DNA from: Caldifarciminota bacterium
GTDB lineage: Bacteria; WOR-3; Hydrothermia; WGAB01
Assembly: GCA_015489295.1 (NCBI GenBank)
Contig: WGAB01000079.1
Span: 1-9,043 of the forward strand
DNA: 9,043 nt
Direction: 5' to 3'
Position 1 is the stretch's first letter. The number at the start of each line of letters is the position of its first letter. Both the position numbers and the translations under genes were made by a program. Below the pieces are notes generated by a model, which searched no databases, was not told where the DNA came from, and saw nothing but the letters and a program-made list of their open reading frames with translations. This document shows, piece by piece, positions 2,255 through 9,043 of this stretch.

Positions 2255-5200
2255 AAGCGGTACCGCCAGTTCAGGCCCACCCCCAACCGGCTGTCCCGGT
2301 CGCGATCCACATACAGCCACAACCGGCGGGTGAGCAGATAGTTCAGGGTGAACACGTCCTTGGAGGGGCTCTGCAGATCGTGGGTGTAGCGGATGTGTAC
2401 CCGGGGCGACAGGTAAAAGCCCACGGTGAAGTGGGGCGACCGCCCGGCCAGGCCCGTTTCGATTTCCAGTTCCGACAGGCGGAGCCGCCGTTTGAGTTCC
2501 CGCGAAACCAGCGCCTCGGCCAGGTCCACCGACCGGCTGCGGAGGTAGGCCAGGGTGGCCGCATTGGGGGCCAGCTGTCCCAGGGTGTAACCGAAGGAGA
2601 GCAGGGAAACGATGTCCTCCAGGGGCAGGACCGGATCGGAGGTCAGCTGCACCTGGGGCTCCCGGAGGGTTCCGGAGGCCAGCAACCGGATCAGGATGGT
2701 TTCCTGAACGGTCGTCAACGCCTGGAAATGGATCTCCGGGTTGAAATCGGGGTCGTGGGCAAACACCATCTGCCCTTCTTCTATGCGGAAGGTGCGGTCC
2801 AGATAGGTCAGGGTCCCCTGGAGCACCCGCAGGTTGCCCGAGAGGTACCGGCCCACGGGCTGGTCCTTTTCCATGGTAAGATCAGCCTGGAGTTCGGCCT
2901 GCACCACATCGTTGATGAAGAACAGTTGCCCCGGGGCCCGGAGGCGGATGCGGAAGGTTACGGGTGAGGGCGCCGGGGCCGGGCCGCCCCCCTCACTGCG
3001 CTGGCCGAAGGGTGTGGTGATGTAGCCTTCGTTCAGATCCAGGCTACCGTCAATATGGAGCCGGGGAAAGACCCCCCGCACGGCCAGCGGACCGGTCACC
3101 CGGAGGTCCACATCGGGCTGGGGCTGGAGCGGAAAATTCCGCAGGTTCAGGTCCAGGGTCACGGTATCCAGGTTCCAGCCGCGGAGACGGGTGCGACCCT
3201 GGCCAAGGACCCGGCCCGGTGGCGCCAGGGCCTCAAAACGCTGGATTTCCAGAACATGGGGCTGAAACCGGAGGTCGGCCTCCAGGTCCTTGAGTTCGGT
3301 TCCGGAGGCCAGCAACACAGCGGAAGGGCTGGTAAGGACGAGGTTCCCCCGGAACACCGGCCGATCCAGGGTTCCCAGCACATGGAGTTCGCCGGAGGCA
3401 AACAACCGGTCGAGATAGAGCCCCGGAGGTTGCGAACGGAGCAGCGGCGTGAGGGGCCATTGCCACAGGTACAGGCTCAGGGAATCGTGGAGGGGTCTGA
3501 AGTTTCGATGAACCCAGAAGTCCGGAGGCATCAGGGCCTCGCCGTAGGCCCGGAGTTCCCGGTCGGCCCGGCGAAGCCGCAGGGAAGAGAGCATTACCAG
3601 CCGGTCCTTTAGCCGAAGGGCCAGGTGGGCCGAGTCTACAGGGAGCCCCACCAGGGTGTCACCAGACCAGTGGATCCCCAGGGAAACCCGGGGAGAACGC
3701 GGGGTACCCCGGGCCTGCAGCCGGATGTTCGCCCGGCCGTTCGTGGCGCCGGGCAGGCGGAAGGGAGCCAGCGCCAGGCTGTCCACCACAGCCTCCACGA
3801 TGAAGCTTGTGTCCTGCTGGACCCCGGTAAGCAGGAAGGTGCCTCCTTGCAGGTCGTAGCCGTGCAGAAACACATCCCGCTCGGTCCCTTCGGCCTGCAG
3901 GTTGGCCCAGAGCACGAGCCCCGTACGGTACCGTGGCACCCGGTACACCAGGGAATCCAGAACGGCCGTGAGCCCGCCGTTGTAGGTCCAGCCCCCGGAG
4001 GCCTCCAGCCGGCTGGAATCCTGCAGGGTCAGCGTGCCGGCAAAGGCGCCCTCACTCTGGCCGAGGCGGATCCAGCCCCGCCCCCGAACCAGGCGCTGTT
4101 GCCCCAGGGTTCCCTGTAAGTCCAGGAGGTCCAGGCGGGTACCGGCCGGAGCTCCCTGAAACCGGAACGGAAAAGAGAGGTCCAGGGCCTGCCGATAACG
4201 GGCGTGGGCCACCCGGCCGCTGCCCTGCCAGCGCAACCGGCGATAGGGGCCCGTCACCTGCAGGGCCACCGCCAGGGTGCCCGACGAAACCTCGGTGTTC
4301 AGGTACGCCAGCGGAAGGTCTCCTACCGTGGCCCAGAGGGCCAGGGTATCGCGGGTGCCGTATCCCTCGGCCAGGATCGTGGGCCGGGCAACTTCAAAAC
4401 GAAGGATCTGCCACTCGTCGGGCAGTTGCCAGTGCGCCTGTCCCCGGACCCCCTGGAACCGCCGCCCCTGCCAGGCTATGGAGGCCAGGGAAAAGGTGCC
4501 GGATCCCTCAAGCCCAACCCCCGCAAAGTCGGCCTGCAGCCCCTGGATTCGGGCATCCTGCCAGGGGCCGGAGGCCTCCACGTGCAGGGAGTACCGCCGA
4601 TCCCGGGGGGCCACCCAGCCCTGTGCCGTCAGTTGCAGCAGCCCCAGGGCCCCTTCCAACCGGAGGATCTCCAGGCGGGGCTCGTTCCACACGAAGCGCA
4701 GGGTCACCGGCCCGGCTTTTTGCCGTTGCCAGCGGATCCGCGCCACCCGCAGCTCGCCGCCCGGCACCCGGGTATCCAGCCGCAGGAAAAGGTGCCGCAG
4801 GTCTCCCTGGCCAGCCCAGGCCAGGGAATCGGTTTGGAGTTCCAGCACCGGGGGCTCATAGGTCACCCGGAGATGGCCCCTCAGGGGTTCCCCTTCGATG
4901 TGGAGTTGGTGCAACGCAAAGCGGCCCCGGTCATACCCCCCGGCGAGCACCGCCGATTGCCGGGCCAGCGGGCGGCCCTCCCGGGCCAGATCGATCCGAC
5001 CGAGGGAAAGCGTATAGGTGAACCGGTCTCGGGTTCCCCGGACCCGGAACCGGACCGCCTGCAGAAAAAGATCCCAGGGCCCCTGTCGCACCCGCAGGGT
5101 TTCTGCCGCCACCTGCTGCACCAGCACCTGCAACCGGGGCGTTTGAGGGGAGGAGGGGTTGCCAGCGGCAGACTCCCGGCCCCCCAAACGAAGGGCCAGG

Positions 5201-5827: not shown

Positions 5828-6322
5828 ATGCTGGACCCGAAGATGCAGGAGGCCCTGAACGAGCAGATCAATGCCGAACTCTTTTCCGCCTATTTGTACC
5901 TGGCCATGGCGGCGTACTTTGAGGCCGAAGATCTGCCCGGCTTCGCCCACTGGATGCGCGTGCAGGCCCAGGAAGAGCTCGAGCACGCCATGAAGATCTT
6001 CGACTTCGTGAACGAGCGGAAGGGCCGGGTACAGCTGGCCGAAATCAAAACCCCCAAAGCCACCTGGTCGTCGCCCGCCGAGGCCTTTGAAGATGCCCTG
6101 CATCACGAAGAAGCGGTGACCCAGCGGATCCACAACCTCGTAGACCTGGCCCGCTCGCTCAAGGACTACGCCACCGAGGTGTTCCTCCAGTGGTTCGTGG
6201 AGGAGCAGGTGGAGGAGGAGGCCACCGCCGAAACGGTCCTGCGCAAAGTGCAACGGGCCAAGGACCATCCGCCGGCCCTGCTGATGCTGGACCGAGAACT
6301 GGGCCAGCGGAAGCCCGAATAG
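5828..6322 (+). CDS. ftnA: Bacterial non-heme ferritin (iron storage)
   Basis: A 164-residue bacterial ferritin-like protein of FtnA type, which assembles into a 24-subunit cytosolic shell, oxidises Fe(II) and stores it as a ferric mineral. The ferroxidase residues fall at the same numbers as in E. coli FtnA: E17 ([12 protein letters not shown]), E49/E50 and H53 ([10 protein letters not shown]), E94 (HHEEAV), and E126-Q127, E129-E130 (VEEQVEEE), so both the di-iron centre and the third iron site look intact. No heme-ligand methionine typical of bacterioferritin is evident at the expected position (residue 52 is Glu). The ATG has a strong AAAGGAGG site 6 bases upstream. The TtuA-rhodanese gene follows after 46 bases with no terminator, so co-transcription is likely. 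The context with feo genes fits an iron-homeostasis cluster. Confidence 0.95.
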
Positions 6323-6368: not shown

Positions 6369-7715
6369 GTGCAGTACGCCAAGTGCGGAGGTGTGCGGTA
6401 TCAGGTCCGCCTGGAACCCTTGGGGGTGCCGTGCTCTGAGTGCCGCCAGGAAGAGGCGGTGGTCCACCTCCGGTACGCCCGCAAACGCCTGTGTGCCGCC
6501 TGCTTCAGCGACTTCTTCGTGCGGCGGGTGCAGCGGACCGTGGAACGGTACCGCATGTTCGGCCCCCGGGACCGGGTGGCCGTGGCCGTTTCCGGCGGCA
6601 AGGACAGCGTGGCCCTGCTCCACGCCCTGCGCCGGGCCTTTCCCGAGCAGGATCTGGTGGCGATCTACCTGAACCTGGGCATCGCCTACTACTCGGACCA
6701 CCTGGAGCAAAAGGTGCGCGACCTGGCCCGCCAGCTGGAGGTGCCCCTCGTGGTCTATAACCTGGCCCAGGAGGAGGGGTACCGGATCGACGATTTCCTG
6801 GCCACCCGGTACCGGAACAAGATGTGCTCGGTGTGCGGAGCCATCAAACGCCAGTTGTTCTCCAAACTGGCCCGGGAACAGGGCGCCACCGTGGTGGCCA
6901 CCGGCCACAACCTGGACGATACCGTGGGTACCATGCTCTCGGCCTTCTTTGCCGGCGACTTTGAAAGCATCCAGCGGCTCAAACCCGTGTTGCCGCCACT
7001 GATCCCGGGCCAGGCCCGTAAGGTCAAGCCCCTGATCCATACCCCCGAAATCGAGGACCTCTACTACGTGCTGCTGAATCGCCTGCCCGTGCAGGAATGC
7101 AGCTGCCCCCACGGCCTCGGCAGCTCGGTGCACCGGTACAAGGACCTGCTGGACCAGATGGAACAACAGAACCCCAATGTCAAGCACCAGTTGCTCGCGG
7201 TTTTCCTCAAAAAGTTTGTGCCCCTTTTGGAGCAACAACAGCCCCGGGAGGCCGAGCCTCTGTCGGTGCAGCCCTGCGTGCGCTGCGGCGAGCCCACCTC
7301 CTCGCCTGATGGGCTCTGCGCCAAGTGCCGCCGGGTAGACCTCCTGAAGCACGCCCGGCCCCCCTCCCTGCCCCTGGAGATCGAACCCGAAGACCTCCTG
7401 GACGGCACCCTGCCCCAGCCCTATCTGCTCCTGGATGTCCGGGCCGAGGCCGACGGCCATCCCCTGCCCGACGCCGTTGCGTTCCCGGCCGAGCCCTTCC
7501 TGCAGGATCCCCGCCGCCGGGCCCGGGCCCTGAAGCGGTGGAAACGGAGCCATCTCCTGGTGGTGGTGTGCGATACCGGCCGCACCAGTTACGCGGTGGC
7601 CGTCAAACTCCGGAACCTGGGCTTTCGGGCCGTGAACCTCAAGGGCGGGCTGCAGGCCCTGGAGAAGGCCCGGCGGCTCCGCGATCTTGCCCAACGGCTC
7701 CCCAAACCCTCCTGA
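6369..7715 (+). CDS. ttuA: TtuA-type tRNA 2-thiolation enzyme fused to a C-terminal rhodanese domain
   Basis: A 448-residue fusion. Residues about 20-325 are a TtuA/TtcA-superfamily PP-loop ATPase: N-terminal zinc finger (C22, C25, C41, C44), P-loop SGGKDS (75-80), Fe-S cysteines C153 and C156 (KMCSVCG) with C244 or C246 (QECSCPHG) as the third ligand, GHNLDDT (179-185), and a second zinc finger (C303, C306, C317, C320). TtuA adenylates U54 of tRNA and uses a [4Fe-4S] cluster to insert sulfur, giving 2-thiouridine that stabilises tRNA at high temperature. Residues about 350-437 form a rhodanese domain with DVR (356-358), the active loop CDTGRTS (C401) and GFRAVNLKGGLQAL. The start is GTG at 6369, with GAGGAGG about 10 bases upstream. 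An in-frame GTG at codon 20 would give the usual short TtuA N-terminus but has no ribosome binding site. Confidence 0.88.
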   Translation: MQYAKCGGVRYQVRLEPLGVPCSECRQEEAVVHLRYARKRLCAACFSDFFVRRVQRTVERYRMFGPRDRVAVAVSGGKDSVALLHALRRAFPEQDLVAIYLNLGIAYYSDHLEQKVRDLARQLEVPLVVYNLAQEEGYRIDDFLATRYRNKMCSVCGAIKRQLFSKLAREQGATVVATGHNLDDTVGTMLSAFFAGDFESIQRLKPVLPPLIPGQARKVKPLIHTPEIEDLYYVLLNRLPVQECSCPHGLGSSVHRYKDLLDQMEQQNPNVKHQLLAVFLKKFVPLLEQQQPREAEPLSVQPCVRCGEPTSSPDGLCAKCRRVDLLKHARPPSLPLEIEPEDLLDGTLPQPYLLLDVRAEADGHPLPDAVAFPAEPFLQDPRRRARALKRWKRSHLLVVVCDTGRTSYAVAVKLRNLGFRAVNLKGGLQALEKARRLRDLAQRLPKPS

Positions 7716-7744: not shown

Positions 7745-7773
7745 TTGCGTCTCCGGCCCGGTGGCTTTAAACT
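7745..7773 (+). promoter_or_regulatory. Promoter of the dtxR-feoA/feoB operon
   Basis: TTGCGT (7745-7750), a 17-base spacer and TAAACT (7768-7773) predict a start near 7780, about 24 bases before the ATG at 7804. It lies in the 88-base gap after ttuA, where no hairpin followed by a T-run is visible, so some read-through from ferritin-ttuA is possible. Confidence 0.55.
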
Positions 7774-7775
7774 TC

Positions 7776-7803
7776 CCTAAAACAAAATTTAGGACGGCCT
7801 AAA
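7776..7803 (+). promoter_or_regulatory. Putative DtxR-family operator covering the start point and ribosome binding region
   Basis: Three copies of one hexamer alternate in orientation: CCTAAA (7776-7781), TTTAGG (7788-7793) and CCTAAA (7798-7803). The last two form a perfect 16-bp palindrome, TTTAGG-N4-CCTAAA, ending at the base before the ATG. TTTAGG/CCTAAA half-sites are characteristic of DtxR/SirR/MntR-type operators, and the gene that follows encodes such a regulator, so autoregulation is likely. The arrays overlap the predicted transcription start and the only Shine-Dalgarno-like bases (AGGA, 7791-7794). Confidence 0.6.
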
Positions 7804-8826
7804 ATGTGGGTGCTCACAGGCGTTTTGGTTGCAGCGGCCGGTGCCCTGGCGGCCTGGGGGCTGGCCAGAGCCCGAGAACGCCTGCGGGTTCGCCGGCGGG
7901 AAACCCAGGAGGATACCCTCAAGTTCCTGTTTTCCCACGATCCCCAGGCCCACGGGGTGCCCCTGGAGGCCCTGGCCGGGTACCTGAAGGTCTCGCCCAG
8001 GGCTGCGGCCGAGCTGGTGGACCGCCTGTGCCAGCAGGAACTCGTACGCCTGCAGGGCAACCGGGTGTACCTCACCCTCCGGGGCCAGCAGGAGGCCACC
8101 CGTATCCTCCGGGCCCACCGGCTCTGGGAGTTCTACCTGTCCTATACCACCGATCTGCCACCCCAGGACCTGCACCGCCTGGCGGAAAAACAGGAGCACC
8201 GCCTCACGCCCGAGCAACTGCGGGATCTCGCCGCCCGAATGGGCCATCCCCTCCGTGACCCCCACGGCGACCCCATTCCCGATGAGGCCGGCACCCTGCC
8301 CCTGGTGGCCCCCGGCAAACCCCTGACCGATGTGCCTGCCCAAACCTGGGTTCAGGTGGTGCATGTGGAGGACGAACCCGCCGACATCTTCGCCCAGATT
8401 GTGGCCGAGGGCATTGATCCCGGTACCGTGTTCCTGGTGCTGGAGAACCTGCCCACCGGCATCCACCTGCGGTTGGACGGCCGAGACCTGTGGCTCGCGC
8501 CCATCGTGGCCAACAACATCAGCGTGCAGGTGCTGCCGGAAGCCCCGCCCCGGCCCCTGCCCCGCAAGACCTTGGCCGACATTGAACCCGGCACCTGGGT
8601 CCGGGTGGCCCGGATCTCACCCCGCATCCAGGGCCTGCTGCGGCGCCGCCTCCTGGACCTCGGGTTTACCCGTGGAGCCCGGGTGAAGCCCGTGCTCCAG
8701 AGTGCCTTCGGCCACGGCGACCCCACGGCCTACTGGGTTCGGGGCAGCCTGATTGCCCTCCGCCGGGAACAGGCCCGCGAAATCCTGGTACAGGAGGATT
8801 CCCATGAAACTGCTTCCCCGGCCTAA
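7804..8826 (+). CDS. Membrane-anchored DtxR/MntR-like metal-dependent regulator fused to two FeoA/SH3-like domains
   Basis: A 340-residue multi-domain protein. Residues 2-20 are a hydrophobic helix followed by an Arg-rich stretch (22-32), predicting an N-out anchor with the rest cytoplasmic. Residues about 36-100 are a DtxR-type winged helix; about 101-165 are the metal-binding dimerisation domain, with the family's HRLxE (H105, E109), H124, E128, E131-H132 and a GDPIPDE ending. The position of DtxR Cys102 is Glu128, as in MntR-type proteins. Two SH3-like FeoA domains follow (about 166-245 and 255-331), the second with the typical [17 protein letters not shown]. DtxR proteins bind operators when loaded with Fe(II) or Mn(II); FeoA is the small cytosolic partner of the FeoB Fe(II) transporter. 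This protein seems to combine sensor, regulator and transporter partner. It overlaps feoB by 23 bases. No separate feoA is seen. Confidence 0.85.
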
Positions 8827-9043
8827 GATCACGCCCGCCTGCGAAACCTGCCCGCTGTATCCCCGGGAATGGCTCCTGGAGGAGGGCAAATGGGACTACC
8901 TGGTGGCCCTGGCTGGTAACCCCAACACAGGCAAGAGCACCATCTTCAACGCCCTCACCGGCCTGCGCCAGCATGTGGGCAACTGGCCCGGCAAAACCGT
9001 GGCCCGCGCCGAGGGCGGCTTTTCCTTCGGCGGCAAACGGTAC
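8804..9043 (+). CDS. feoB: Ferrous iron transporter FeoB, N-terminal 80 residues (continues past the right edge)
   Basis: The first 80 codons of FeoB, the Fe(II) transporter with an N-terminal GTPase-like domain and a membrane permease domain. The G1 motif GNPNTGKST (38-46), FNALTG, and [11 protein letters not shown] (56-66, with the G2 threonine) followed by [10 protein letters not shown] are diagnostic. Before the G domain is a 30-residue extension with a CETC pair (C13, C16), which could bind metal but is not tested. The ATG at 8804 has GGAGG 6 bases upstream and lies inside the end of the regulator gene (23-base overlap), indicating translational coupling of regulator and transporter. The remainder of the G domain and the permease domain lie outside the window. 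Confidence 0.93.

Follow-up and report, generated by a model that had tools for sequence, protein, structure and literature searches.

Regulators of the DtxR family (DtxR, IdeR, MntR and ScaR) are soluble proteins that carry a DNA-reading helix. In DtxR proteins metal fixes the SH3 domain to the N-terminal domains (PMC10317159, PMC7762939), and the first helix turn of DtxR is presumed to need unfolding, since it would otherwise clash with DNA (PMC10317159). The nearest studied DtxR protein with twin FeoA domains is PgMntR of Porphyromonas gingivalis, which combines a winged helix-turn-helix, a metal domain and two FeoA domains; it is produced as a soluble protein, binds DNA and shares an operon with the Mn transporter FB2 (FeoB2 in that paper), and the sections of the paper used here describe no membrane helix (PMC4805248). 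In YtgCR of Chlamydia a DtxR module is physically joined to a membrane metal importer by fusion to an ABC permease; cleavage frees its repressor part, which in the presence of iron binds DNA. Fusions of permease and repressor have been reported from 11 phyla (PMC5599777, PMC7755916).

On the transporter side, stand-alone FeoA is normally an unanchored protein of about 8 kDa (PMC7762939). FeoA binding to the FeoB GTPase domain has been published for FeoAB of B. fragilis; the interaction is nucleotide-dependent and GTP-bound FeoB is stabilized by FeoA, and the FeoAB survey in the same paper excluded DtxR-fused FeoA by hand (PMC8980893). FeoC is a small winged-helix partner of FeoB (PMC10710835, PMC7762939), and FeoC and added regulatory domains provide general precedents for transporter control (PMC10710835). 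The locus type described here puts a recognizable metal sensor in the FeoA slot and so bears on the role of FeoA and on the throttling of FeoB by iron. FeoC is not known to derive from DtxR, to have the DtxR metal sites or to be fused to FeoA. Regulators of the CadC/ToxR type consist of an OmpR-type winged helix, one transmembrane helix and a periplasmic sensor. Among the open-licence PubMed Central papers listed in our literature search, we recognized none that dealt with a membrane-anchored DtxR-FeoA protein or with a split feoB.

We analyzed a stretch of 9,043 nucleotides from a WOR-3 (Caldifarciminota) bacterium, referred to as the window, which encodes a tethered DtxR-SH3-FeoA protein directly ahead of feoB. 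We consider it reasonably likely that this protein serves the Feo ferrous-iron transporter as a regulatory subunit, anchored in the membrane and sensing metal. The features of the locus are as follows.

7766..7781, unstranded: another operator-like copy, TTTAAACTTCCCTAAA, which has 1 mismatch and lies 22 bp upstream of the perfect one
7788..7803, unstranded: perfect 16-bp palindromic operator-like site TTTAGGACGGCCTAAA, its last base adjoining the ATG
7804..8826, + strand: open reading frame encoding the tethered protein (DtxR-SH3-FeoA), 340 aa and a stop codon
7810..7866, + strand: membrane helix, residues 3-21; Arg-rich residues follow, and the positive-inside rule gives an N-out/C-in orientation
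7906..8076, + strand: winged helix, residues 35-91, with its fold retained and its DNA-reading positions variable across the family
8077..8298, + strand: metal-binding and dimerization domain (Fe_dep_repr_C), residues 92-165
8329..8541, + strand: first of the SH3/FeoA-like domains, residues 176-246, which DtxR proteins ordinarily have as their third
8362..8379, + strand: H-x-E-D-E-P, residues 187-192, in the first SH3 domain
8566..8799, + strand: second FeoA domain (FeoA-2), residues 255-332, the added FeoA
8804..9043, + strand: feoB (GTPase), of which the window includes the 5' part; AGGAGG lies at 8792-8797

The original prediction, made from the window alone, had described 7804-8826 as a membrane helix followed by a DtxR module and FeoA domains, overlapping feoB by 23 bases, and this architecture was confirmed. 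Its count of two FeoA-like domains holds for the second, which is an added FeoA, and not for the first, which corresponds to the third (SH3) domain that DtxR proteins ordinarily have. Domain searches with the window protein returned Fe_dep_repr_C (E 1e-19) and placed the second domain above Pfam's FeoA cut-off, with the FeoA fold present. The winged-helix fold is kept as well, but the DtxR DNA-binding domain PF01325 was not detected at E 0.1. Hits in an NCBIfam search of the window were all under cut-offs, and an Rfam search of it gave nothing at the gathering threshold.

The tethered protein shares its fold, metal ligands, dimer and SH3 domains with DtxR, IdeR, MntR and ScaR, but its DNA-reading positions are unconserved. 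From PgMntR it differs in its anchor, its partner and the loss of DNA-reading residues. The same loss also sets it apart from YtgCR, as do its single anchor helix, its FeoA domain and its partnership with FeoB; the window protein has no ABC-3 permease domain and a single hydrophobic helix, and is therefore not a YtgCR-like fusion. With FeoA it shares the fold of FeoA-2 and the slot directly before FeoB. The CadC/ToxR type is not matched, the tethered protein having a DtxR fold and no periplasmic domain (the transmembrane helix starts at residue 3).

The architecture is general. In a homologue search 1435 of 7997 scored candidates passed E 0.001, and the best 120 of the 1435 are 328-383 aa long. 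We compared 45 distinct loci: L001-L014 of 80 retained loci, 25 of 26 from a survey of the phylum of a Roseivirga genome (G012) and 6 of 7 from a survey of Chloroflexota. Left out were L015-L080 (soluble or partial; L062 is truncated by its contig), L102, which repeats L013, and L117, which repeats L012. Going by record titles, the 45 loci include Bacteroidota, Chloroflexota, WOR-3 and Ignavibacteriota.

The membrane helix is present in 45/45 tethered loci, with a drifting sequence, and among the best 120 of 1435 homologues 114 have a hydrophobic N-terminal segment (Kyte-Doolittle mean ≥1.6); the other six score 1.29 (P0006), 1.57 (P0024), 1.57 (P0029), 1.06 (P0049), 0.19 (P0026) and 0.16 (P0038). 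Together with the Arg-rich stretch behind residues 3-21, the constancy of the helix supports membrane anchoring as first proposed. Its presence throughout despite sequence drift also led us to reject a start codon further downstream, around residue 33. That tblastn matched L001 only from residue 33 onward is due to divergence of the N-terminus, and the L001 reading frame has a helix. A cleavable signal peptide is unlikely, as the tethered loci have a mean of 0.2 K/R before the helix and 5.5 in the next 18 residues. In AF2 models of both the window protein and a distant member (L013) the anchor helix is continuous with DtxR helix 1; in L013 it is a single helix of residues 3-54 with pLDDT 94.9, falling to 84 over residues 21-30. 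In 32 of the 44 members with a searchable helix-1 motif a proline lies no more than 22 residues before helix 1, so most of them may have a kink in the anchor helix.

An open reading frame for the FeoB GTPase lies directly downstream of the tethered gene in 45/45 loci. It is separate in 41 of them (254-304 aa as called) and fused to the permease in L010, L012, L099 and L106. The recurrence of the separate frame in 41/45 loci marks the split of feoB as conserved and makes sequencing error an unlikely cause. A separate permease frame follows in 38 loci; L084, L086 and L116 showed no permease match within the remainder of the 1.5-kb flank. A soluble DtxR is encoded on the same strand in the flank of 40/45 loci (not seen in the flanks of L005, L086, L099, L111 and L116), after the permease gene in L001 and L002 and ahead of the tethered gene in the other 38; in L114 and L115 it lies some 640-720 bases off. 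The window stops within feoB, so its split feoB and soluble DtxR are inferred from L001 and L002. With the subunit anchored and the GTPase separate, sensor, switch and channel can each be produced on their own and combined one by one. Upstream of the tethered gene, on the same strand, the window carries a ferritin gene (5828-6322) and a gene for a TtuA-like PP-loop protein with a rhodanese domain (6369-7715), and thus places iron storage near iron uptake.

We searched the same sample of 198 genomes from the Roseivirga phylum with a FeoB-N query and found a strong group of matches in 30 genomes (E 1.5e-74 or lower; the next match is at 8.9e-55). In 28 of the 30 this FeoB type is encoded by open frames of 254-315 aa, and in two (G022, G027) it is fused; the weaker hits, among the matches listed, are frames of 599-872 aa except one of 242 aa (G103). 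The tethered protein occurs in 26 of the 30 genomes. In all four genomes without it (G059, G140, G156, G181) a FeoA frame, 77-122 aa as called, lies directly before FeoB-N, and the tethered protein therefore occupies the FeoA position. The same four genomes encode a soluble DtxR nearby, on the opposite strand in 3/4.

The metal ligands H105, E109, H124, E131 and H132 are invariant in 45/45 tethered proteins, and of the same 45, E128 is E in 37 and D37 is D in 42. We take E128 to be the position of Cys102 in DtxR and of Glu in MntR. H187, E189, D190, E191 and P192 of the SH3 domain are likewise present in 45/45 tethered loci. Of the 40 soluble neighbours, 33 have D at the D190 position, and the remaining four residues lack conservation there. 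The bound metal could be Fe or Mn.

To compare the DNA-reading parts we paired the tethered protein with the soluble DtxR from the same 40 loci; charge means of the tethered protein are over 41 rows, window included. Entropy of the recognition helix is 2.57 bits in the tethered and 1.40 in the soluble proteins, and that of the wing 2.24 versus 1.62 bits, whereas the metal/dimer domain is near equal (1.40 versus 1.38 bits). Averaged over the 28 columns of recognition helix and wing, entropy in the tethered protein exceeds that in the soluble one by 0.90 bits (Wilcoxon p 2e-4), as compared to 0.01 bits over the 74 columns of the metal domain (p 0.80) and −0.06 over the 29 columns of helices 1-2 (p 0.62). 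Mean net charge is −2.2 in the tethered winged helix versus +1.9 in the soluble one, and 0.1 versus 1.2 in the recognition helix. At the wing position mapped to DtxR Arg60, K/R is found in 2/40 tethered and 34/40 soluble proteins, the residue equivalences to DtxR and MntR being our assignment by motif. PF01325 is detected in 6/85 tethered members (7/55 in an overlapping set) and in 11/11 soluble neighbours tested, out of 40; L120, the one soluble twin-FeoA protein tested, matches it at 3e-17. The winged-helix fold of the tethered protein is intact. Erosion is weaker in the lineage of the window: the recognition helix/wing difference is 0.40 bits in the 8 Chloroflexota and WOR-3 pairs versus 0.96 in the other 32, and the net charge of the window's own residues 54-91 is +1.

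Comparison of the window with L001 (gene at 3905-4921) shows 29% identity in the membrane helix, 57% in the winged helix and 91-100% in the domains behind, with 5/14 identical residues in the recognition helix (residues 64-77). The 5' divergence over 7804-8073 (residues 1-90) looks like recombination or fast change. Fast change of the DNA-reading parts could reflect a shift to other DNA targets rather than the loss of any target. The operator is nearly identical in window and L001 although their winged helices are 57% identical.

The site in the window has the pattern TTTAGG-N4-CCTAAA and abuts the start codon. Of 46 regions (window plus 45 loci), 21 carry the relaxed pattern TTTAGR-N4-YCTAAA, drawn after viewing the window and L001-L014, ahead of the first operon gene with at most 1 mismatch, as compared to 0.5% of dinucleotide shuffles; among the 31 loci not viewed beforehand, 10 do so. 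The site is not universal, since 25/46 regions carry two or more mismatches. Within the window there are 7 sites with at most 3 mismatches versus 2.4 expected, and at least 7 occurred in 1 of 200 shuffles.

Our best reading is that the tethered protein is a DtxR paralogue turned FeoA subunit that controls FeoB post-translationally, with the soluble DtxR handling transcription; it probably no longer switches genes, and would sense intracellular metal and adjust the FeoB importer directly. The protein would span the inner membrane and extend its domains into the cytosol, dimerize in DtxR style and bind the FeoB GTPase through FeoA-2. Cytosolic Fe2+ (or Mn2+) would fill the DtxR sites and lock the SH3 domain onto the dimer, FeoA-2 would move, and the shift would change GTP turnover and with it Fe2+ import, which amounts to feedback acting on the transporter. 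The soluble DtxR, acting at TTTAGG-N4-CCTAAA, would be what regulates the operon's transcription. There is about an even chance for a wider account, in which a DtxR repressor paralogue gave up DNA and became a permanent subunit exerting direct metal trans-inhibition of FeoB, its anchor helix lying where DNA would lie and its FeoA domain relaying the cytosolic iron reading to the detached FeoB GTPase, in a four-gene Feo subtype of several phyla with permease-DtxR fusions as a possible parallel. If true, this would cleanly exemplify how a transcription factor can become part of a transporter.

The original prediction was of a DNA-binding repressor through which transport might be coupled to transcription. 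Constant association with FeoB supports some coupling of metal sensing to transport. A DNA-binding repressor is not the likeliest reading, however, since the recognition helix and wing lack features that the soluble neighbour retains, the wing Lys/Arg among them, since PF01325 is so rare among tethered members, and since a separate soluble DtxR lies in most flanks. A membrane-tethered repressor would bind operator DNA in the membrane, as CadC does, or after proteolytic release like YtgR. The intact winged-helix fold, the operator-like site next to the gene's own start codon and the milder erosion in the window's lineage all agree with it, as does DNA binding by the soluble twin-FeoA PgMntR (PMC4805248), and YtgCR, whose freed repressor part binds DNA, keeps it alive as the less likely reading (PMC5599777, PMC7755916). 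We nevertheless regard it as unlikely: under the published helix-1 unfolding mechanism the continuous anchor helix would collide with DNA (PMC10317159), and the nearly unchanged operator of window and L001 does not fit their divergent winged helices.

The invariant ligands allow a further reading as an iron receiver, a membrane-bound metallochaperone whose sites take Fe2+ leaving FeoB and pass it on, with FeoA-2 for docking only. The constant FeoB partnership and the extra invariant acidic and His residues of the first SH3 domain, mostly missing from the soluble neighbours, are in agreement with such a role; the site set is that of DtxR sensors, however, and we consider the reading quite improbable. 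Gene order by itself is accounted for by the FeoA slot, as it would be if the DtxR part no longer sensed anything and had been left as a spacer holding FeoA at the membrane. We give this structural role little credence, because the metal ligands are invariant and the metal/dimer domain is as conserved as that of soluble DtxR. The regulatory subunit thus remains the reading that we prefer, and the name 'metal-dependent transcriptional regulator' that some database entries of tethered proteins bear should not be trusted at face value.

Counting full-length matches above 300 bits, with carriers known beforehand included in each sample, we found the tethered protein in 26/198 genomes of the Roseivirga phylum (known carrier G012), 7/121 of Chloroflexota (phylum of known carrier G011) and 2/80 of WOR-3, both of them known carriers (G001, G002). 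The WOR-3 loci L001 and L002 are the closest named relatives of the window. In a quick IQ-TREE analysis of the metal and SH3 core (130 rows; SH-aLRT only, without bootstrap), all 60 tethered rows (window, 45 loci and 14 database proteins) fall on one side of a branch with SH-aLRT 92, and the soluble neighbours are intermixed with ordinary DtxR. The tree lends no support to a separate origin in each genome by local duplication of the adjacent DtxR. P0017 and P0023, which their sources name Chloroflexi and Ardenticatenia, are among the rows next to the window's WOR-3 group (support 90), and WOR-3 therefore probably acquired the tethered gene by transfer.

Two loci carry metagenome-assembled genome (MAG) labels at odds with their position, L005 (Borreliella garinii) and L011 (Rickettsiales); their tethered proteins group with Bacteroidota rows, and the labels are therefore probably wrong. 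The Chloroflexota sample also contains soluble DtxR-FeoA-FeoA proteins of 302-309 aa adjoining a fused feoB (L118, L120, L121, L122). These four have the PgMntR-type layout and form their own group (support 99) outside the tethered proteins, on a tree that does not contain PgMntR itself. Another separate group (support 99) consists of 11 ABC-permease-DtxR fusions of Bacteroidota, YtgCR itself not being among the rows. One protein with the YtgCR-like layout, L107:736-2220, joins an ABC-3 metal permease to a DtxR-SH3 module. PF01325 appears in 2 of the best 120 of its 2700 homologues in the precomputed Pfam list, and there is a hint that fusions such as L107 may likewise have lost DNA binding. 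Several L107 homologues are named Saprospiraceae or Bacteroidota.
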